Source: a beta proteobacterium CB (GTDB taxonomy: Bacteria > Pseudomonadota > Gammaproteobacteria > Burkholderiales > Burkholderiaceae). From it: DNA of 64,000 nucleotides. Position 1 is the stretch's first letter; every line of letters starts with the position of its first letter. Below the pieces are notes generated by a model that made no database searches, had not been told where the DNA came from, and was given only the letters and a program-made list of their open reading frames with translations. Made by a program: the position numbers and the translations under genes. Below are positions 25,585-41,713 of this stretch, piece by piece. The stretch covers positions 1,922,001 to 1,986,000 of the forward strand of contig CP004348.1 of the NCBI GenBank assembly GCA_000342265.1. The letters are read 5' to 3'.

Positions 25585-26217
25585 ATGGTCGATATGCACG
25601 GCAATTCTCCAAAATCGCTACGGCAAGACTTGCTAGCCCAGAGGAAACACTTTGCGGCTAGCGAAGGCTATTCCATTGCTCAAGAAGCCATTTTGGCTGG
25701 TCTAGCCAGATTTCTGACTGACCATGATGCTCAAGTTCAATCTATTGCCTTGTATTGCCCCATTCAGGATGAACTTGATCTACGGCCTGCTTTATTGGCT
25801 TGGACCAAGAATCAGGCGGGTAAAACCTTGGCACTTCCTTTTGCGCGCCCTGATAAACATTTGGATTTTTATGTCTGGCAAGCAGGCGATCTATTGATTC
25901 CCAGTCGCCACGGTGTGCCGGAGCCGGATCCCAATAACCCCCGCAGACCTCAAGTGAACCCAGACTGCATTTTAATTCCCTGCGTAGGCTGGTCAGAATC
26001 CAGGGCGGGTAATACAACGCATTATTGGCGGCTAGGCTATGGAGGCGGCTACTTTGACCGCACCTTATCCCAGTTGCGCAAAGCCAAACCAAACCTACTA
26101 TGCGTAGGCATAGGCTTTGATTGGCAAAAATTAGATGATGCGCAATGGCAGGCTCAAACACATGATGAGCCTTTAGATGCCATGCTGACTGAGTCAGGCC
26201 TACTAATTACTTATTGA
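25585..26217 (+). CDS. 5-formyltetrahydrofolate cyclo-ligase
   Basis: A 210-residue protein when started at the ATG at 25585. The open frame extends another 81 codons upstream, but that part is antisense to slt and does not belong to the family. Motifs include the N-terminal LRQDLLAQRKHF, IALYCPIQDELDLRP and the substrate/ATP loop LGYGGGYFDRTL. The enzyme converts 5-formyl-THF to methenyl-THF with ATP. There is no clear Shine-Dalgarno; the ATG at 25594 is an alternative. The 3' end overlaps the convergent metF by 11 bases, so two one-carbon genes meet tail to tail. Confidence 0.9.
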   Translation: MVDMHGNSPKSLRQDLLAQRKHFAASEGYSIAQEAILAGLARFLTDHDAQVQSIALYCPIQDELDLRPALLAWTKNQAGKTLALPFARPDKHLDFYVWQAGDLLIPSRHGVPEPDPNNPRRPQVNPDCILIPCVGWSESRAGNTTHYWRLGYGGGYFDRTLSQLRKAKPNLLCVGIGFDWQKLDDAQWQAQTHDEPLDAMLTESGLLITY

Positions 26218-27037
26218 GGCTTAAATTATCTGCAATCGCCAAAACAGCGTCTGCTTGATTCAGTGAATAGAAATGCAATCCCGGAGCACCAGCGGTTAAA
26301 AGCTGATCACAAAGATCGGTAACCACCTCTTCTCCAAATGCACGAATCGAAGCCGTGTCATCACCATAAGACTGCAAGCGCAAACGAATCCAACGGGGAA
26401 TCTCTGCACCACAAGCATCAGAAAAGCGGAGTAGCTGAGTACTGTTAGTAATTGGCATGATTCCAGCAATCACCGGCTGAGTGACGCCCAATTCATAGGC
26501 CTCATCTACAAAGCGGAAATAGGCATCGCTGTTATAGAAATACTGAGTCACTGCTGAATTGGCTCCAGCCTTCATCTTCTGCACGAAGAAATCAACATCC
26601 GTTGCAGGCGACTTAGCTTGAGGATGACCTTCTGGATATGCGGCCACATCAATATGAAACCAATCACCAGTTTCTGCGCGGATAAATTCGACTAATTCAT
26701 TAGCGTGATGGAACTCACCATACTGACCCATACCAGATGGTAAGTCGCCACGCAAAGCTACGATACGTTTAACACCTAAAGCCTGGTATTGCTTCAACAT
26801 GTCGCGCACGCTTTCACGTGAGCTACCAACACAAGATAAGTGTGGAGCAACCGCTGCACCTGCAGCATGAATATCACTCACTACTTTTAATGTGCCAGAT
26901 TGAGTAGAGCCACCAGCACCAAAGGTCACAGAATAAAAAGCGGGCTTGAGCGTTTCACTAAAACGCTCGCGCACGAGATGCAGCTTGCTCTCACCTTCAG
27001 GTGTTTTTGGAGGGAAGAATTCAACGCTTAATTCCAT
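26207..27037 (-). CDS. metF: 5,10-methylenetetrahydrofolate reductase
   Basis: A 276-residue flavoprotein that supplies 5-methyl-THF to methionine synthase. It starts MELSVEFFPPKTPEGESKL, with catalytic Glu in VEFFPPKT. The FAD/folate barrel motifs SVTFGAGGST, ALRGDLPSGMG and ITQYFY-like AVTQYFYNSDAYFRF are present. It is 55 bases after ahcY and likely the third gene of metK-ahcY-metF, linking it to the SAM cycle. Confidence 0.96.
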   Translation of the reverse strand: MELSVEFFPPKTPEGESKLHLVRERFSETLKPAFYSVTFGAGGSTQSGTLKVVSDIHAAGAAVAPHLSCVGSSRESVRDMLKQYQALGVKRIVALRGDLPSGMGQYGEFHHANELVEFIRAETGDWFHIDVAAYPEGHPQAKSPATDVDFFVQKMKAGANSAVTQYFYNSDAYFRFVDEAYELGVTQPVIAGIMPITNSTQLLRFSDACGAEIPRWIRLRLQSYGDDTASIRAFGEEVVTDLCDQLLTAGAPGLHFYSLNQADAVLAIADNLSLNK

Positions 27038-28572: not shown

Positions 28573-28603
28573 TAGAAACTCGCTAGCCATTGAATCATGG
28601 GTT

Positions 28604-28712
28604 AGCGAGCGCAGTTGCAATTAGCAAACTCTGGGGTTACCTAGGAGCCCACTCCCTTCAAGCCTGGGGAAACACTGGTTCTCAGTATTCCTTGCAACGC
28701 TCCTTGAAGGTA
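28604..28712 (-). ncRNA. SAH riboswitch-like aptamer upstream of ahcY
   Basis: The RNA strand shows the layout of the S-adenosylhomocysteine riboswitch. P1 pairs CCTTCAAG (28710-28703) with CTTGAAGG (28662-28655). The conserved GGAGCGTTGCAAGG follows the first arm and CCCAGGCTTG leads into the second. A P2-like stem pairs around GAATACTG and CAGTGTTTCC. The downstream pseudoknot strand CGCTC (28611-28607) complements GAGCG (28702-28698). Known SAH riboswitches turn on ahcY or metH in beta- and gammaproteobacteria, and ahcY is the next gene. Immediately downstream, CTCGCTA and TAGCGAG can form an alternative hairpin that uses part of the pseudoknot strand. Confidence 0.85.
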
Positions 28713-28790: not shown

Positions 28791-29957
28791 TTACAAGCCA
28801 GCAGCCGCACGTAATGCAGGCGCCTTATCGCACTGTTCCCAAGTAAATTCCGGCTCTTCACGACCAAAGTGGCCATAAGCAGCAGTCTTGCGATAAATCG
28901 GACGCAAGAGGTTCAACATCTTGACGATACCTTTTGGACGCAAGTCAAAGTGCTCAGATACCAATTGCGCAATCTTCTCGTCAGAGATCTTGCCAGTACC
29001 AAAGGTGCTCACCATCACTGAGGTAGGTTTAGCCACACCAATCGCGTAAGAGATCTGAATCAAGCACTTGCTTGCCAAGCCTGCAGCAACTACGTTCTTC
29101 GCCACATAGCGACCAGCATAGGCAGCAGAACGGTCAACCTTAGATGGATCCTTGCCAGAGAACGCGCCACCACCGTGAGGTGCTGCACCGCCGTAGGTGT
29201 CCACAATGATCTTGCGACCTGTTAAACCACAATCGCCTTGCGGGCCACCGATAACAAATCTACCCGTTGGGTTTACCAAGAAGTTAATTGCACCTTTGAT
29301 CAAATGCTTAGGCAACACTGGTTTGATAATTTCTTCGATCACTGCTTCGCGCAACTTCTCGAGAGAAATATCTTCATCATGCTGTGTAGACAGAACAACT
29401 GTATCGATTGAGTCAGGCTTGCCATCCACGTAACGCAAGGTCACTTGAGACTTCGCATCTGGGCGCAACCAGTTCAAGCGGCCATCACGACGCAATTGAG
29501 ATTGACGCTCTACCAAGCGATGTGACAAGTGGATCGGCAAAGGCATGAGCTCTGCAGTCTCATCACAAGCGTAACCAAACATCAGGCCTTGGTCGCCAGC
29601 ACCTTGATCCAAGCCATCATCATGCGCCTTATCTACGCCCTGAGCGATGTCAGGGCTTTGCTTGTCATAAGCAACCAACACAGCACAGCCCTTGTAATCA
29701 ATGCCGTAGTCAGTATTGTCATAACCAATTTCACGCAAAGTGTTGCGAGCCACTTGGATGTAATCCACATTGGCATTCGTTGTGATCTCACCAGCCAAAA
29801 CTACCAAACCGGTATTACACAAAGTCTCTGCAGCAACGCGCGCAGTTGGGTCCTGAGCTAGGATTGAATCCAGGATAGCGTCAGAGATTTGGTCTGCTAC
29901 TTTATCGGGGTGACCCTCAGAAACCGATTCTGAGGTAAAGAAGTAATCATTGGCCAT
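28791..29957 (-). CDS. metK: S-adenosylmethionine synthetase
   Basis: A 388-residue enzyme that makes SAM from methionine and ATP. Motifs include [18 protein letters not shown] near the N-terminus, the methionine-binding [12 protein letters not shown], and the phosphate loop [22 protein letters not shown] precedes the ATG. It begins the metK-ahcY-metF group, with a separate control region between metK and ahcY. Its own leader resembles a SAM-II riboswitch, which would repress it when SAM is plentiful. Confidence 0.97.
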
Positions 29958-30019
29958 TGCATATTCCTTTAAAAATTAACACGATCTTTGGGACAACTCG
30001 ACGTGCCAGGAACTACAAC

Positions 30020-30078
30020 GGCGACGCTTTAGCAGAATTTATGAATCGCCCTGCAAGTTGCCTTAACTCAGCGATAAA
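30020..30078 (-). ncRNA. Candidate SAM-II-like riboswitch upstream of metK
   Basis: The minus strand reads in order ATCGC, TGAGTTAAGG, ACTTGCAGG, GCGAT, TCATAAAT and CTGCTAAAG. These follow the order of the conserved SAM-II (SAM_alpha) core: P1 arm, TGATTTAA, TTGCAAG, P1 return, TGATAAAT, GTAGCTAAA. P1 can pair (ATCGC with GCGAT) and a pseudoknot stem is possible (GCAG with CTGC). A competing pairing, GGCGA with TCGCC further downstream, is mutually exclusive with P1. One of the three U residues expected in loop 1 is changed. SAM-II is best known from alphaproteobacteria. The start codon is about 65 bases downstream, so the output step is unclear. Confidence 0.55.
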
Positions 30079-30081
30079 TGA

Positions 30082-30111
30082 ATTCTATCCGAAAAACGCC
30101 TTATTCATCAA
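30082..30111 (-). promoter_or_regulatory. Predicted sigma-70 promoter of metK
   Basis: On the minus strand TTGATG (30111-30106) and TAGAAT (30087-30082) are 18 bases apart. The expected transcription start falls at the first bases of the SAM-II-like element, which supports both calls. Confidence 0.55.
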
Positions 30112-30160
30112 GCATCACCGGAAATTTGGCCCTAGCGCTGGCATTGAATATCATTAGAGG

Positions 30161-31021
30161 GTGCGCAAACTCCTTCTCAAGCTAACCCTCGCTGCAATCG
30201 CAGTACTGCCCTTATTCCTTGTTCAGGTGATTGGGGCTGCTTTAGGGATATTGGCTTATGTAGGTTCTAGGCAATATAGAGCACTTTTTCGCCCTCAATA
30301 TGAGGCGGTTGTTAAAAGTCATCATTTACCACTACAAATCTGGAGCGCTGCGGCGGCCTCGGGACAACTCTTTTCGGACAGTCTGTGGATTTGGCGAAAT
30401 CCCAAAAAAGCACTTTCTCTGGTTGAAGTGCAAGACTGGGATTTAGTTGAGGCGGCCATTAATGAGGGTCATGGCTTAGTCATGCTGACACCGCACCTAG
30501 GCGGCTTTGAAATCATTCCTCGAGTATTAGCTCAACACTTCCCAGCCACCATCCTCTATCGTCCATCACGCCAAGAATGGCTGAATGAGGTAGTGGAAGA
30601 GGGTCGCGCCTATCCTAATATGCATTTCGTGCCAACCAATCTGAATGGCGTTCGTCAAATGACGCGAGCACTGACACGGGGTGAAGCTATTGGCATTCTT
30701 CCAGATCAAGTGCCTAGTGGTGGCGAAGGTGTTTGGGTACCCTTCTTTGGGCGCCCCGCTTATACAACCCCACTACCGGCACGTCTAGCTAATCGCAACA
30801 ACACACCGGTGGTCATGTTCACCGCCAAACGTAAAGGTCTTGGCAAGGGCTGGCTAATGCAGGCCAAGAGGCTGCCGCCACTTTCGGAAGAATCTACACT
30901 GGCTGCCACTGAACTTAATGTTGCTATTGAAAACGCAATTCTAGTTGCACCCAATCAATTCATCTGGGCCTATAACCGCTACAAACATCCCAGCGGAGCA
31001 GAATTACCACCGAGCAATTAG
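30161..31021 (+). CDS. Lysophospholipid / lipid A acyltransferase (LpxL-HtrB family)
   Basis: A 286-residue inner-membrane acyltransferase with one N-terminal membrane helix (LTLAAIAVLPLFLVQVIGAALG) and the HX4E catalytic motif as HLGGFE near residue 112. GVWVPFFGRPAYTTP and IWAYNRYKHP are typical of late lipid A acyltransferases. The start is GTG; an in-frame stop sits two codons upstream and AGAGG directly abuts the GTG, so initiation is unusual. It precedes a second family member by 25 bases; the two probably add the secondary acyl chains. Exact chain and position are not predictable. Confidence 0.9.
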   Translation: MRKLLLKLTLAAIAVLPLFLVQVIGAALGILAYVGSRQYRALFRPQYEAVVKSHHLPLQIWSAAAASGQLFSDSLWIWRNPKKALSLVEVQDWDLVEAAINEGHGLVMLTPHLGGFEIIPRVLAQHFPATILYRPSRQEWLNEVVEEGRAYPNMHFVPTNLNGVRQMTRALTRGEAIGILPDQVPSGGEGVWVPFFGRPAYTTPLPARLANRNNTPVVMFTAKRKGLGKGWLMQAKRLPPLSEESTLAATELNVAIENAILVAPNQFIWAYNRYKHPSGAELPPSN

Positions 31022-40711: not shown

Positions 40712-41713
40712 TCAGGCTTTGCCAGCCTTTGCACGTGGATGGGCTTTATCGTATGCCTGCGCTAGGTGCTGGAAATCTAAAGAGGTATAAATCTGGGTGC
40801 TGGCAATGCTGGCATGCCCCAGCATCTCTTGCACCGCCCGCAGGTCTTGGGACGACTGCAGAACATGACTGGCGAAGCTATGACGCATCATGTGCGGGTG
40901 CACATGGGTTGGCAATCCAGCCCTCATTGCTAAAGTCCTTAGGCGTGCCTGCACCGTCCGAGGGGATAAACGCGCGCCCGTAGCCGAAATAAATAGGGCC
41001 ATAGATACGTCAGCTTGCTCCATCTGATCGCGAACCGTGCGCCAGGCTTTGAGGGATTGCATAGCTGGTCCGCCGATGGGTACCGAGCGGCGTTTACCAC
41101 CCTTACCCAAAACAGTCACTTCTGCAGCATCCCAATCCAACCAACCGGCCGACTCATGTTGACGATCCTTGCTTTGCATTACATCAATACCCAGTAGCTC
41201 TGATAAACGTAGGCCTGAGGAATACAGTAAATCGATGATCGCCGCGTCACGCACAGCCTCTAGATCTTTTTTTTCTTCAGCCTCTTTTACGGCTTGATTA
41301 ACCAAGGCAAGCGCTTGCTCAACCGAAAGCGCCTTGGGCAAAGACTTCAATCGCTTAGGCGCTTTGACATCATCAACGGGATTGGCGATTAGGTTTGTAG
41401 TCACCTTTTGCGCCTGCGCATCGCGACGCGCATCTTTCTCGGTCAACCAGTCATACCAACCTCGCCACGCAGACAGCGCCCTAGCAATCGTGCGAGATGA
41501 TTTTCCTTTGGAATGCAAACGGCCGGCCCAGCGACGCACATGCGCATTTGTGACTTTTAATAATTCAATGGAATCTTCTGTTGCCAATTCTTGCAGCTCA
41601 CCCAGATCCATGCGATAGGCTTTCAGCGTATGAGGTGATAGCTGCCTCAATATATGCAGCTCGTGCAGATACTCTTGCACCAAGGGATGCGGATCAGCTG
41701 GTGCTTGGCTCAT
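40712..41713 (-). CDS. xerC: Site-specific tyrosine recombinase XerC
   Basis: A 333-residue recombinase for chromosome dimer resolution. An N-terminal SAM-like domain (VQEYLHELHILRQLSPHTLKAYRMDL) precedes the catalytic domain with Arg in SSGLRLSELLG, HMMRHSFASHVL (H-x-x-R), LGHASIASTQIYTSLDF with the His and the nucleophile Tyr. I chose the ATG at 41713, which gives a normal length; the longer frame would read 30 residues into the upstream gene. Pairing with a DUF484 gene is the usual arrangement. Confidence 0.94.
   Translation of the reverse strand: MSQAPADPHPLVQEYLHELHILRQLSPHTLKAYRMDLGELQELATEDSIELLKVTNAHVRRWAGRLHSKGKSSRTIARALSAWRGWYDWLTEKDARRDAQAQKVTTNLIANPVDDVKAPKRLKSLPKALSVEQALALVNQAVKEAEEKKDLEAVRDAAIIDLLYSSGLRLSELLGIDVMQSKDRQHESAGWLDWDAAEVTVLGKGGKRRSVPIGGPAMQSLKAWRTVRDQMEQADVSMALFISATGARLSPRTVQARLRTLAMRAGLPTHVHPHMMRHSFASHVLQSSQDLRAVQEMLGHASIASTQIYTSLDFQHLAQAYDKAHPRAKAGKA

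Follow-up and report, generated by a model that had tools for sequence, protein, structure and literature searches.

The riboswitch class closest to the element analyzed here is SAM-II (Rfam RF00521, SAM_alpha), in which U10-U12, U20, U21, G22, C23, G42, C43, U44 and A45-A47 are reported to be completely conserved; in the same account, U11 and U21 point toward the sulfonium, U44 bonds with the adenine, and A47 engages the methionine end of the ligand (PMC3764141). SAM-V (RF01826) is described as a translational OFF switch whose Shine-Dalgarno sequence lies inside a short P2a helix (PMC6061858). A further system, the betaproteobacterial metXZ element (Leyn 2014), is presented as a pseudoknot with an alternative pairing and a terminator that stands before the methionine genes metX and metZ (PMC4239095); our guess, which likens it by its description and not by its sequence, is that this element is ordinary SAM-II. 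Forty-four tandem SAM-II riboswitches have also been reported (PMC9481103), and Weinberg 2010 gives SAM-II variants in its supplement.

Accounts of where these elements occur differ between sources. A 2007 survey mentions SAM-II expression platforms in both alpha- and beta-Proteobacteria (PMC2258182). The 2014 survey, as excerpted, lists SAM_alpha only in Rhizobiales and Rhodobacterales, and gives betaproteobacterial metK as a gene with no element found and nothing known of its regulation (PMC4239095). In a 2022 cloning paper, a table footnote refers to unpublished data in which 5' UTR elements of Burkholderia thailandensis metK, metX and metZ were suspected and confirmed (PMC8814607). Within the open-licence literature, taken as main texts without supplements, we found no paper that describes a metK subclass of SAM-II.

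In our window, the 64,000-nucleotide stretch of contig CP004348.1 that was analyzed, metK occupies 29957-28791 on the minus strand and encodes an S-adenosylmethionine synthetase of 388 aa with three SAM synthetase Pfam domains. A sequence-only reading of this DNA had placed a SAM-II-like riboswitch before the gene, a proposal that homology, covariation, conserved contacts and a fitting expression platform support. It had also suggested that a betaproteobacterial copy would extend the range of the class, and this part does not stand: within the order, RF00521 matches above the Rfam cut-off occur in 69 of 399 genomes, and, given the 2007 report (PMC2258182), SAM-II in betaproteobacteria is already known, as are tandem SAM-II copies.

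Homology to SAM-II and distribution

Neither RF00521 nor RF01826 was matched by cmscan in the whole window at gathering score or in a 600-base scan. When 173 bases were scanned, SAM-V was again without a match and SAM_alpha reached 14.2 bits against a gathering cut-off of 36, so that the covariance-model check suggested by the earlier reading came back below threshold for one family and empty for the other. Because three RF00521 places in the same genome, all inside reading frames, outscore the leader (19.9-22.7 bits), 14.2 bits taken alone is at the noise level of the genome. We regard the other RF00521 places, one of them at window 41265-41345, as chance matches; the best three fall in fur-, xerC- and hemF-like frames (names read from translations). 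RF00521 was dropped as the deciding test, the leader being scored under in-gene matches of its own genome. The gathering score (Rfam 15) was reached by none of 20 metK loci scanned, from 13 families, which is why such leaders stay unannotated.

As RF00521 is silent on the element at its cut-off, we built models of our own. R1, used for surveys, holds 22 distinct metK leaders, including those of the window and its genus; R2 holds 27 aptamers from RF00521 matches of the order, each of which has UUU at positions 10-12 and comes from outside the window's genus; R3 holds 30 metK leaders of other families, with the window's genus excluded. Run on the window's genome, the ordinary-SAM-II model R2 ranks the element first (33.2 bits, E 7.0e-6; next place 19.4) with a match spanning 30084-30008, and R3 also places it at the top (68.1 bits, E 3.7e-14; next 16.2). 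These results confirm that the element lies beyond chance, as two models made without its genus both rank it above every other place in the genome, and the independent model R2 ties it to accepted SAM-II aptamers.

The element is present in all 34 genus members in which metK was found, 3 of the 37 genus genomes having no metK match. Among 15 metK leaders of other families inspected, six carry the motif or its UUU form and nine have no such motif. Within the order, R1 at E <= 0.01 has a match in 291 of 399 genomes, a count that includes cross-matches to ordinary SAM-II; 80 regions among these places were picked by hand and are not a random sample. Of 369 genomes in the class, 82 have R1 matches at E <= 1e-5, where many weaker matches are ordinary SAM-II by motif (among 17 inspected). 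Across the phylum, R3 at E <= 1e-8 has a match in 28 of 398 genomes. When named species were scanned with an exact pattern, at least 80 loci came up, with Polynucleobacter, Cupriavidus, Massilia, Undibacterium, Chromobacterium, Thauera and Bordetella among the matches listed. A metK start lies within 400 nt 3' of the motif in 72 of 80 named records among the matches listed; of the eight listed records without metK, three stop no more than 250 nt from the motif.

Several observations stand beside this survey. G033, a complete one-contig member of the genus, is without a metK match at E <= 0.001, and in another member a second metK of 68% identity (L073, G008:C7:7674-8825) has no such motif upstream. 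The gammaproteobacterial genome G676 has seven R1 matches, six of them forming three pairs with a spacing of about 45 nt. In 25 of the 37 loci that lie away from metK, a further SAM-II copy precedes the variant, a likeness to tandem SAM-II from which the window's metK leader, with its single aptamer, differs. At such loci (L105, L106, L109-L113, L125, L137-L139, L141, L156, L159, L161, L165, L172, L184, L190-L192 and L196), small frames that start MYDC or MFDC and have no Pfam family lie 3' of the motif, and several have a MATE-type transporter downstream (Pfam MatE confirmed for L172 only). Variant SAM-II also occurs before MoxR-like AAA ATPases (L121, L186, L200, L204 and L207) and before an HD-domain hydrolase (L118 and L120), with L121 and L118 checked against Pfam. 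In the window itself, a SAH riboswitch (RF01057, 48.6 bits) is found at 28600-28711 on the minus strand between metK and ahcY, followed by a metF-like gene (26207-27037), such that the two halves of the SAM cycle adjoin with one riboswitch each; a SAH riboswitch is likewise present in 3 of the 20 metK loci scanned.

Architecture, covariation and ligand site

The leader (30075-30020, minus strand) reads AUCGCU GAGUUAA GGCAA CUUGCAG GGCGAU UCAUAAAUU CUGCUAAAGCGUCGCC and follows 3' of a promoter-like pair. The SAM-II core strings occur in the order given by the sequence-only reading, with ATCGC at 30075-30071, TGAGTTAAGG at 30070-30061, TTGCAGG at 30056-30050, GCGAT at 30049-30045, ATAAAT at 30042-30037 and TGCTAAAG at 30034-30027, all on the minus strand. 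The features of the locus, with the basis of each, are as follows.

30082..30111, minus strand: sigma-70-like promoter TTGATG-18-TAGAAT (consensus match 9/12)
30019..30076, minus strand: SAM-II-type aptamer (pseudoknot), full extent matched by models R1 and R3
30070..30075, minus strand: P1 5' strand AUCGCU (sequence; two-sided pair changes in alignments A1 and A2, below)
30065..30069, minus strand: triplex third strand G8 A9 G10 U11 U12 (numbering as published in PMC3764141, mapped in this analysis)
30051..30062, minus strand: P2 5' side GGCAACUUGCAG, with P2a GGC at 30062-30060 and P2 core CUUGCAG at 30057-30051 (covariation)
30045..30050, minus strand: P1 3' strand GGCGAU, also the 5' part of the competing ON pairing (sequence, covariation, fold)
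30023..30035, minus strand: P2 3' side CUGCUAAAGCGUC, with the core at 30035-30027 and P2a GUC at 30025-30023 (covariation)
30031 and 30028, minus strand: equivalents of U44 and A47, respectively, within the P2 3' side (conserved bases)
30043..30063, minus strand: predicted ON hairpin 5' strand (loop 1 and P1'), partner 30027-30008 (minimum-energy fold, nascent 81-123 nt)
30008..30022, minus strand: anti-Shine-Dalgarno strand GCCGUUGUAGUUCCU (folds, duplex permutations)
29953..29968, minus strand: OFF partner AGGAAUAUGCAAUGGC, comprising the Shine-Dalgarno sequence, AUG and second codon (folds)

The promoter named in the earlier reading is present, as one of two promoter-like sites in 29900-30300, where shuffles lead one to expect 0.6. 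Counting 7 nt from the -10 hexamer, transcription is predicted to begin at about 30075, where P1 has its first base, which agrees with what that reading had proposed.

With SAM-II, the metK form shares an H-type pseudoknot, P1, P2, the third strand, and the UUGC and GCUAAA core. It differs in having G instead of U at position 10 and GUUAA instead of UUUGA, in the near-fixed GACAAC before UUGC and GUCGC after GCUAAAGC, in its main target, which is metK and not metX/metZ, and in standing below the Rfam cut-off. With SAM-V it has in common the kind of pseudoknot and the predicted SAM site; the Shine-Dalgarno sequence, however, lies outside P2a (GUC, 30025-30023), about 54 nt further on, where it would be caught by a separate strand. 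The metXZ element shares the pseudoknot, the alternative pairing, the link to methionine genes and the class, while differing in its target genes and terminator (PMC4239095).

Alignment of related metK leaders, also suggested by the earlier reading, revealed conserved pairing in P1 and P2 with two-sided changes. In alignment A1 (22 rows), such changes occur in five of the seven pairs of P1 and two of the ten of P2, and 93.6% of cells pair as compared to 35-48% with slid partners. Of the five covariation measures, four lie above all 500 shuffles; the remaining one, further pair types, does not (379/500). In alignment A2, which has 110 distinct rows including ordinary SAM-II copies and was fitted to P1 with a model that lacks P2, two-sided changes are seen in 6 of 6 P1 pairs and 5 of 10 P2 pairs, 94.8% pair versus 31-49% slid, and every measure is unreached by any shuffle, bearing in mind that kinship among sequences may beat such shuffles in the absence of structure. 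The P1 stem and P2 pseudoknot covary, in accord with the SAM-II structure.

Inspection of the ligand site was based on the first 99 of 127 A2 rows, which give 88 distinct strong matches of at least 48.4 bits. U11, U20, U21, G22, C23, G42, C43, U44 and A45-A47 are kept in all 88, among them the reported contacts to sulfonium, adenine and methionine (U11, U21, U44, A47 and G22), and U12 is kept in 86; this conservation is partly circular, because the rows were picked by a model holding those same bases. Position 10, in contrast to the U10 of SAM-II, is G in 70 and U in 18 of the 88, and G in the window (30067). Among 63 distinct copies before metK the split is 58 G to 5 U, and among 25 away from metK it is 12 to 13, so the loop-1 U that the earlier reading had flagged as changed is a genuine substitution typical of metK copies. 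We had considered that the changed base might be the sulfonium-facing U11, which proved wrong, as the published triples place it at U10 (PMC3764141). In SAM-V, the counterpart of U10 (U8) is reported to serve as an imino proton donor for the U paired with the SAM adenine (PMC6061858). Since G too has an imino proton, a U-to-G change at this position is plausible as a conservative swap, and G10 may take over the U10 contact, with its imino proton still able to donate to U44. The element is homologous to SAM-II, yet a non-standard member of the class by both the Rfam cut-off and position 10.

A predicted translational OFF switch

Directly 3' of P2a, the strand 30022-30008 is complementary to 29968-29953, which spans the Shine-Dalgarno sequence of metK (at about 29969-29965, minus strand) and its AUG. 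Genus leaders that differ in sequence stay complementary, as in GUAGUUAGU/GCUAACUAU (L069) and GUUCAAGUU/AACUUGAAU (L071). For seven representatives, 12 of 5040 permutations pair as well as the leaders' own anti-Shine-Dalgarno strands. Across 79 distinct metK leaders (88 with identical ones merged, counting those with both motif and start codon), the leaders' own duplexes score -17.7 kcal/mol versus -13.0 permuted, a value reached in 0 of 5000 permutations, with a median rank of 0.19. With one leader per family in 11 families (11 of 14 representatives, leaving out f2, f38 and one gammaproteobacterial leader), the corresponding values are -16.4 and -12.4 kcal/mol, with 0 of 20,000, the leader's own partner being best over all ten others in just 4 of the 11. 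Full-length folds contain the OFF helix in 64 of 79 leaders; in five swap controls, the corresponding counts out of 79 are 34, 33, 29, 32 and 26. As judged from these computed pairings, the complementarity of the OFF strand to the ribosome site is lineage-specific.

Folding of growing transcripts of the window's leader, in computations that hold neither pseudoknot nor ligand, gives P1 as the minimum as far as nt 75, then the ON hairpin at nt 81-123, and finally P1 together with the OFF helix from nt 135 onward. The sequence-only reading had noted that P1 can pair and that a competing GGCGA/UCGCC pairing exists; both are borne out, and the latter (30050-30046 with 30024-30020) belongs to the longer predicted ON hairpin. 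Among the 79 leaders, the nascent minimum is the ON hairpin in 29 and P1 in 45. Unconstrained, the window's full-length leader favors OFF (-36.2) over ON (-32.1), and its Shine-Dalgarno accessibility is 0.25 whether or not aptamer bases are barred from other pairs. Barring them lowers accessibility from 0.83 to 0.19 in L026 and from 0.37 to 0.20 in L028, with no such change in most other leaders tried (for L010, which is outside the seven representatives, the start codon was wrongly chosen in these accessibility folds). Because the window's full-length fold is already OFF, switching would rest on folding during transcription. Another possible pairing, of loop 1 with a downstream GAGUUGUC (29999-29992), was left out of the main model because the ON hairpin is more stable than the fold that contains it; 28 of 79 metK leaders have GTTGTC between the element and the start codon.

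In the mechanism that we propose, low SAM would allow the nascent loop 1 and P1 3' strand (30063-30043) to pair with 30027-30008, leaving the ribosome site free so that MetK could be made. At high SAM, the P1/P2 pseudoknot would be locked by its ligand with loop 1 and P1' held within it, and the freed strand 30022-30008 would pair with the metK Shine-Dalgarno sequence and start codon (29968-29953). With loop 1 and P1' kept in the pseudoknot by bound SAM, the OFF state would be favored. We infer both this direction of switching and its co-transcriptional timing.

Competing explanations and significance

Aptamer homology, helix covariation, conserved ligand-contacting bases and lineage-specific OFF complementarity are all shown by comparing sequences, and on these grounds the metK leader is probably a SAM-II-type riboswitch of a metK-associated betaproteobacterial subclass that acts as a translational OFF switch, with SAM as the most likely ligand of its aptamer. 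Chance resemblance within an AT-rich leader, to which the rank of the leader under three in-gene RF00521 matches might point, is refuted by the genome-wide E values of the two genus-free models (3.7e-14 for R3 and 7e-6 for R2), by covariation, and by adjacency to metK in 72 of 80 records among the matches listed. It is very improbable that the leader is a relic, an RNA kept for some other reason whose metabolite response has been lost: the altered U10 and a window fold that is OFF with or without the aptamer would be compatible with such a loss, but the ligand-contacting bases are invariant across many families and both P1 and P2 show two-sided changes.

Control by transcription attenuation or mRNA stability, instead of hiding of the ribosome site, would accord with the description of SAM-II as mostly transcriptional (PMC6061858); we rate it as quite unlikely, given that no intrinsic terminator-like site is found in 29900-30300 and that the complementarity targets the ribosome site and start codon. 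Somewhat more credible, though still unlikely, is that the same fold is tuned otherwise, with G10 shifting the metK subclass to SAH or a different compound of the SAM cycle, or leaving it with SAM but at a changed affinity and lower discrimination. The strong tie of G10 to metK (58 of 63 distinct copies versus 12 of 25 elsewhere) would fit this possibility, as would a SAM-I variant before metK and other genes that is reported to sense spermidine instead (PMC10853860). Against it, the sulfonium-facing U11 and U21 are kept in 88 of 88 matches together with U44 and A47, the SAM-V counterpart of U10 is described as touching the adenine-pairing U and not the ligand (PMC6061858), and U and G interchange inside the subclass, metK copies included (5 of 63 U).

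Returning to the reading of the leader as a SAM-II-type translational switch, a metK subclass fits the gap left by the 2014 report of unexplained betaproteobacterial metK control, at least as that report is excerpted (PMC4239095). We put forward more tentatively, as a doubtful proposal, that the GUU form makes up a function-tuned subclass of its own within SAM-II, belonging to betaproteobacterial metK genes, in which G10 alters affinity or SAM/SAH discrimination. If true, metK would be set at a SAM threshold, or a SAM/SAH ratio, other than that of the methionine genes under the UUU form. Naturally occurring aptamers with G10 and with U10 allow a direct test for the role of a ligand-site base that has been called invariant.
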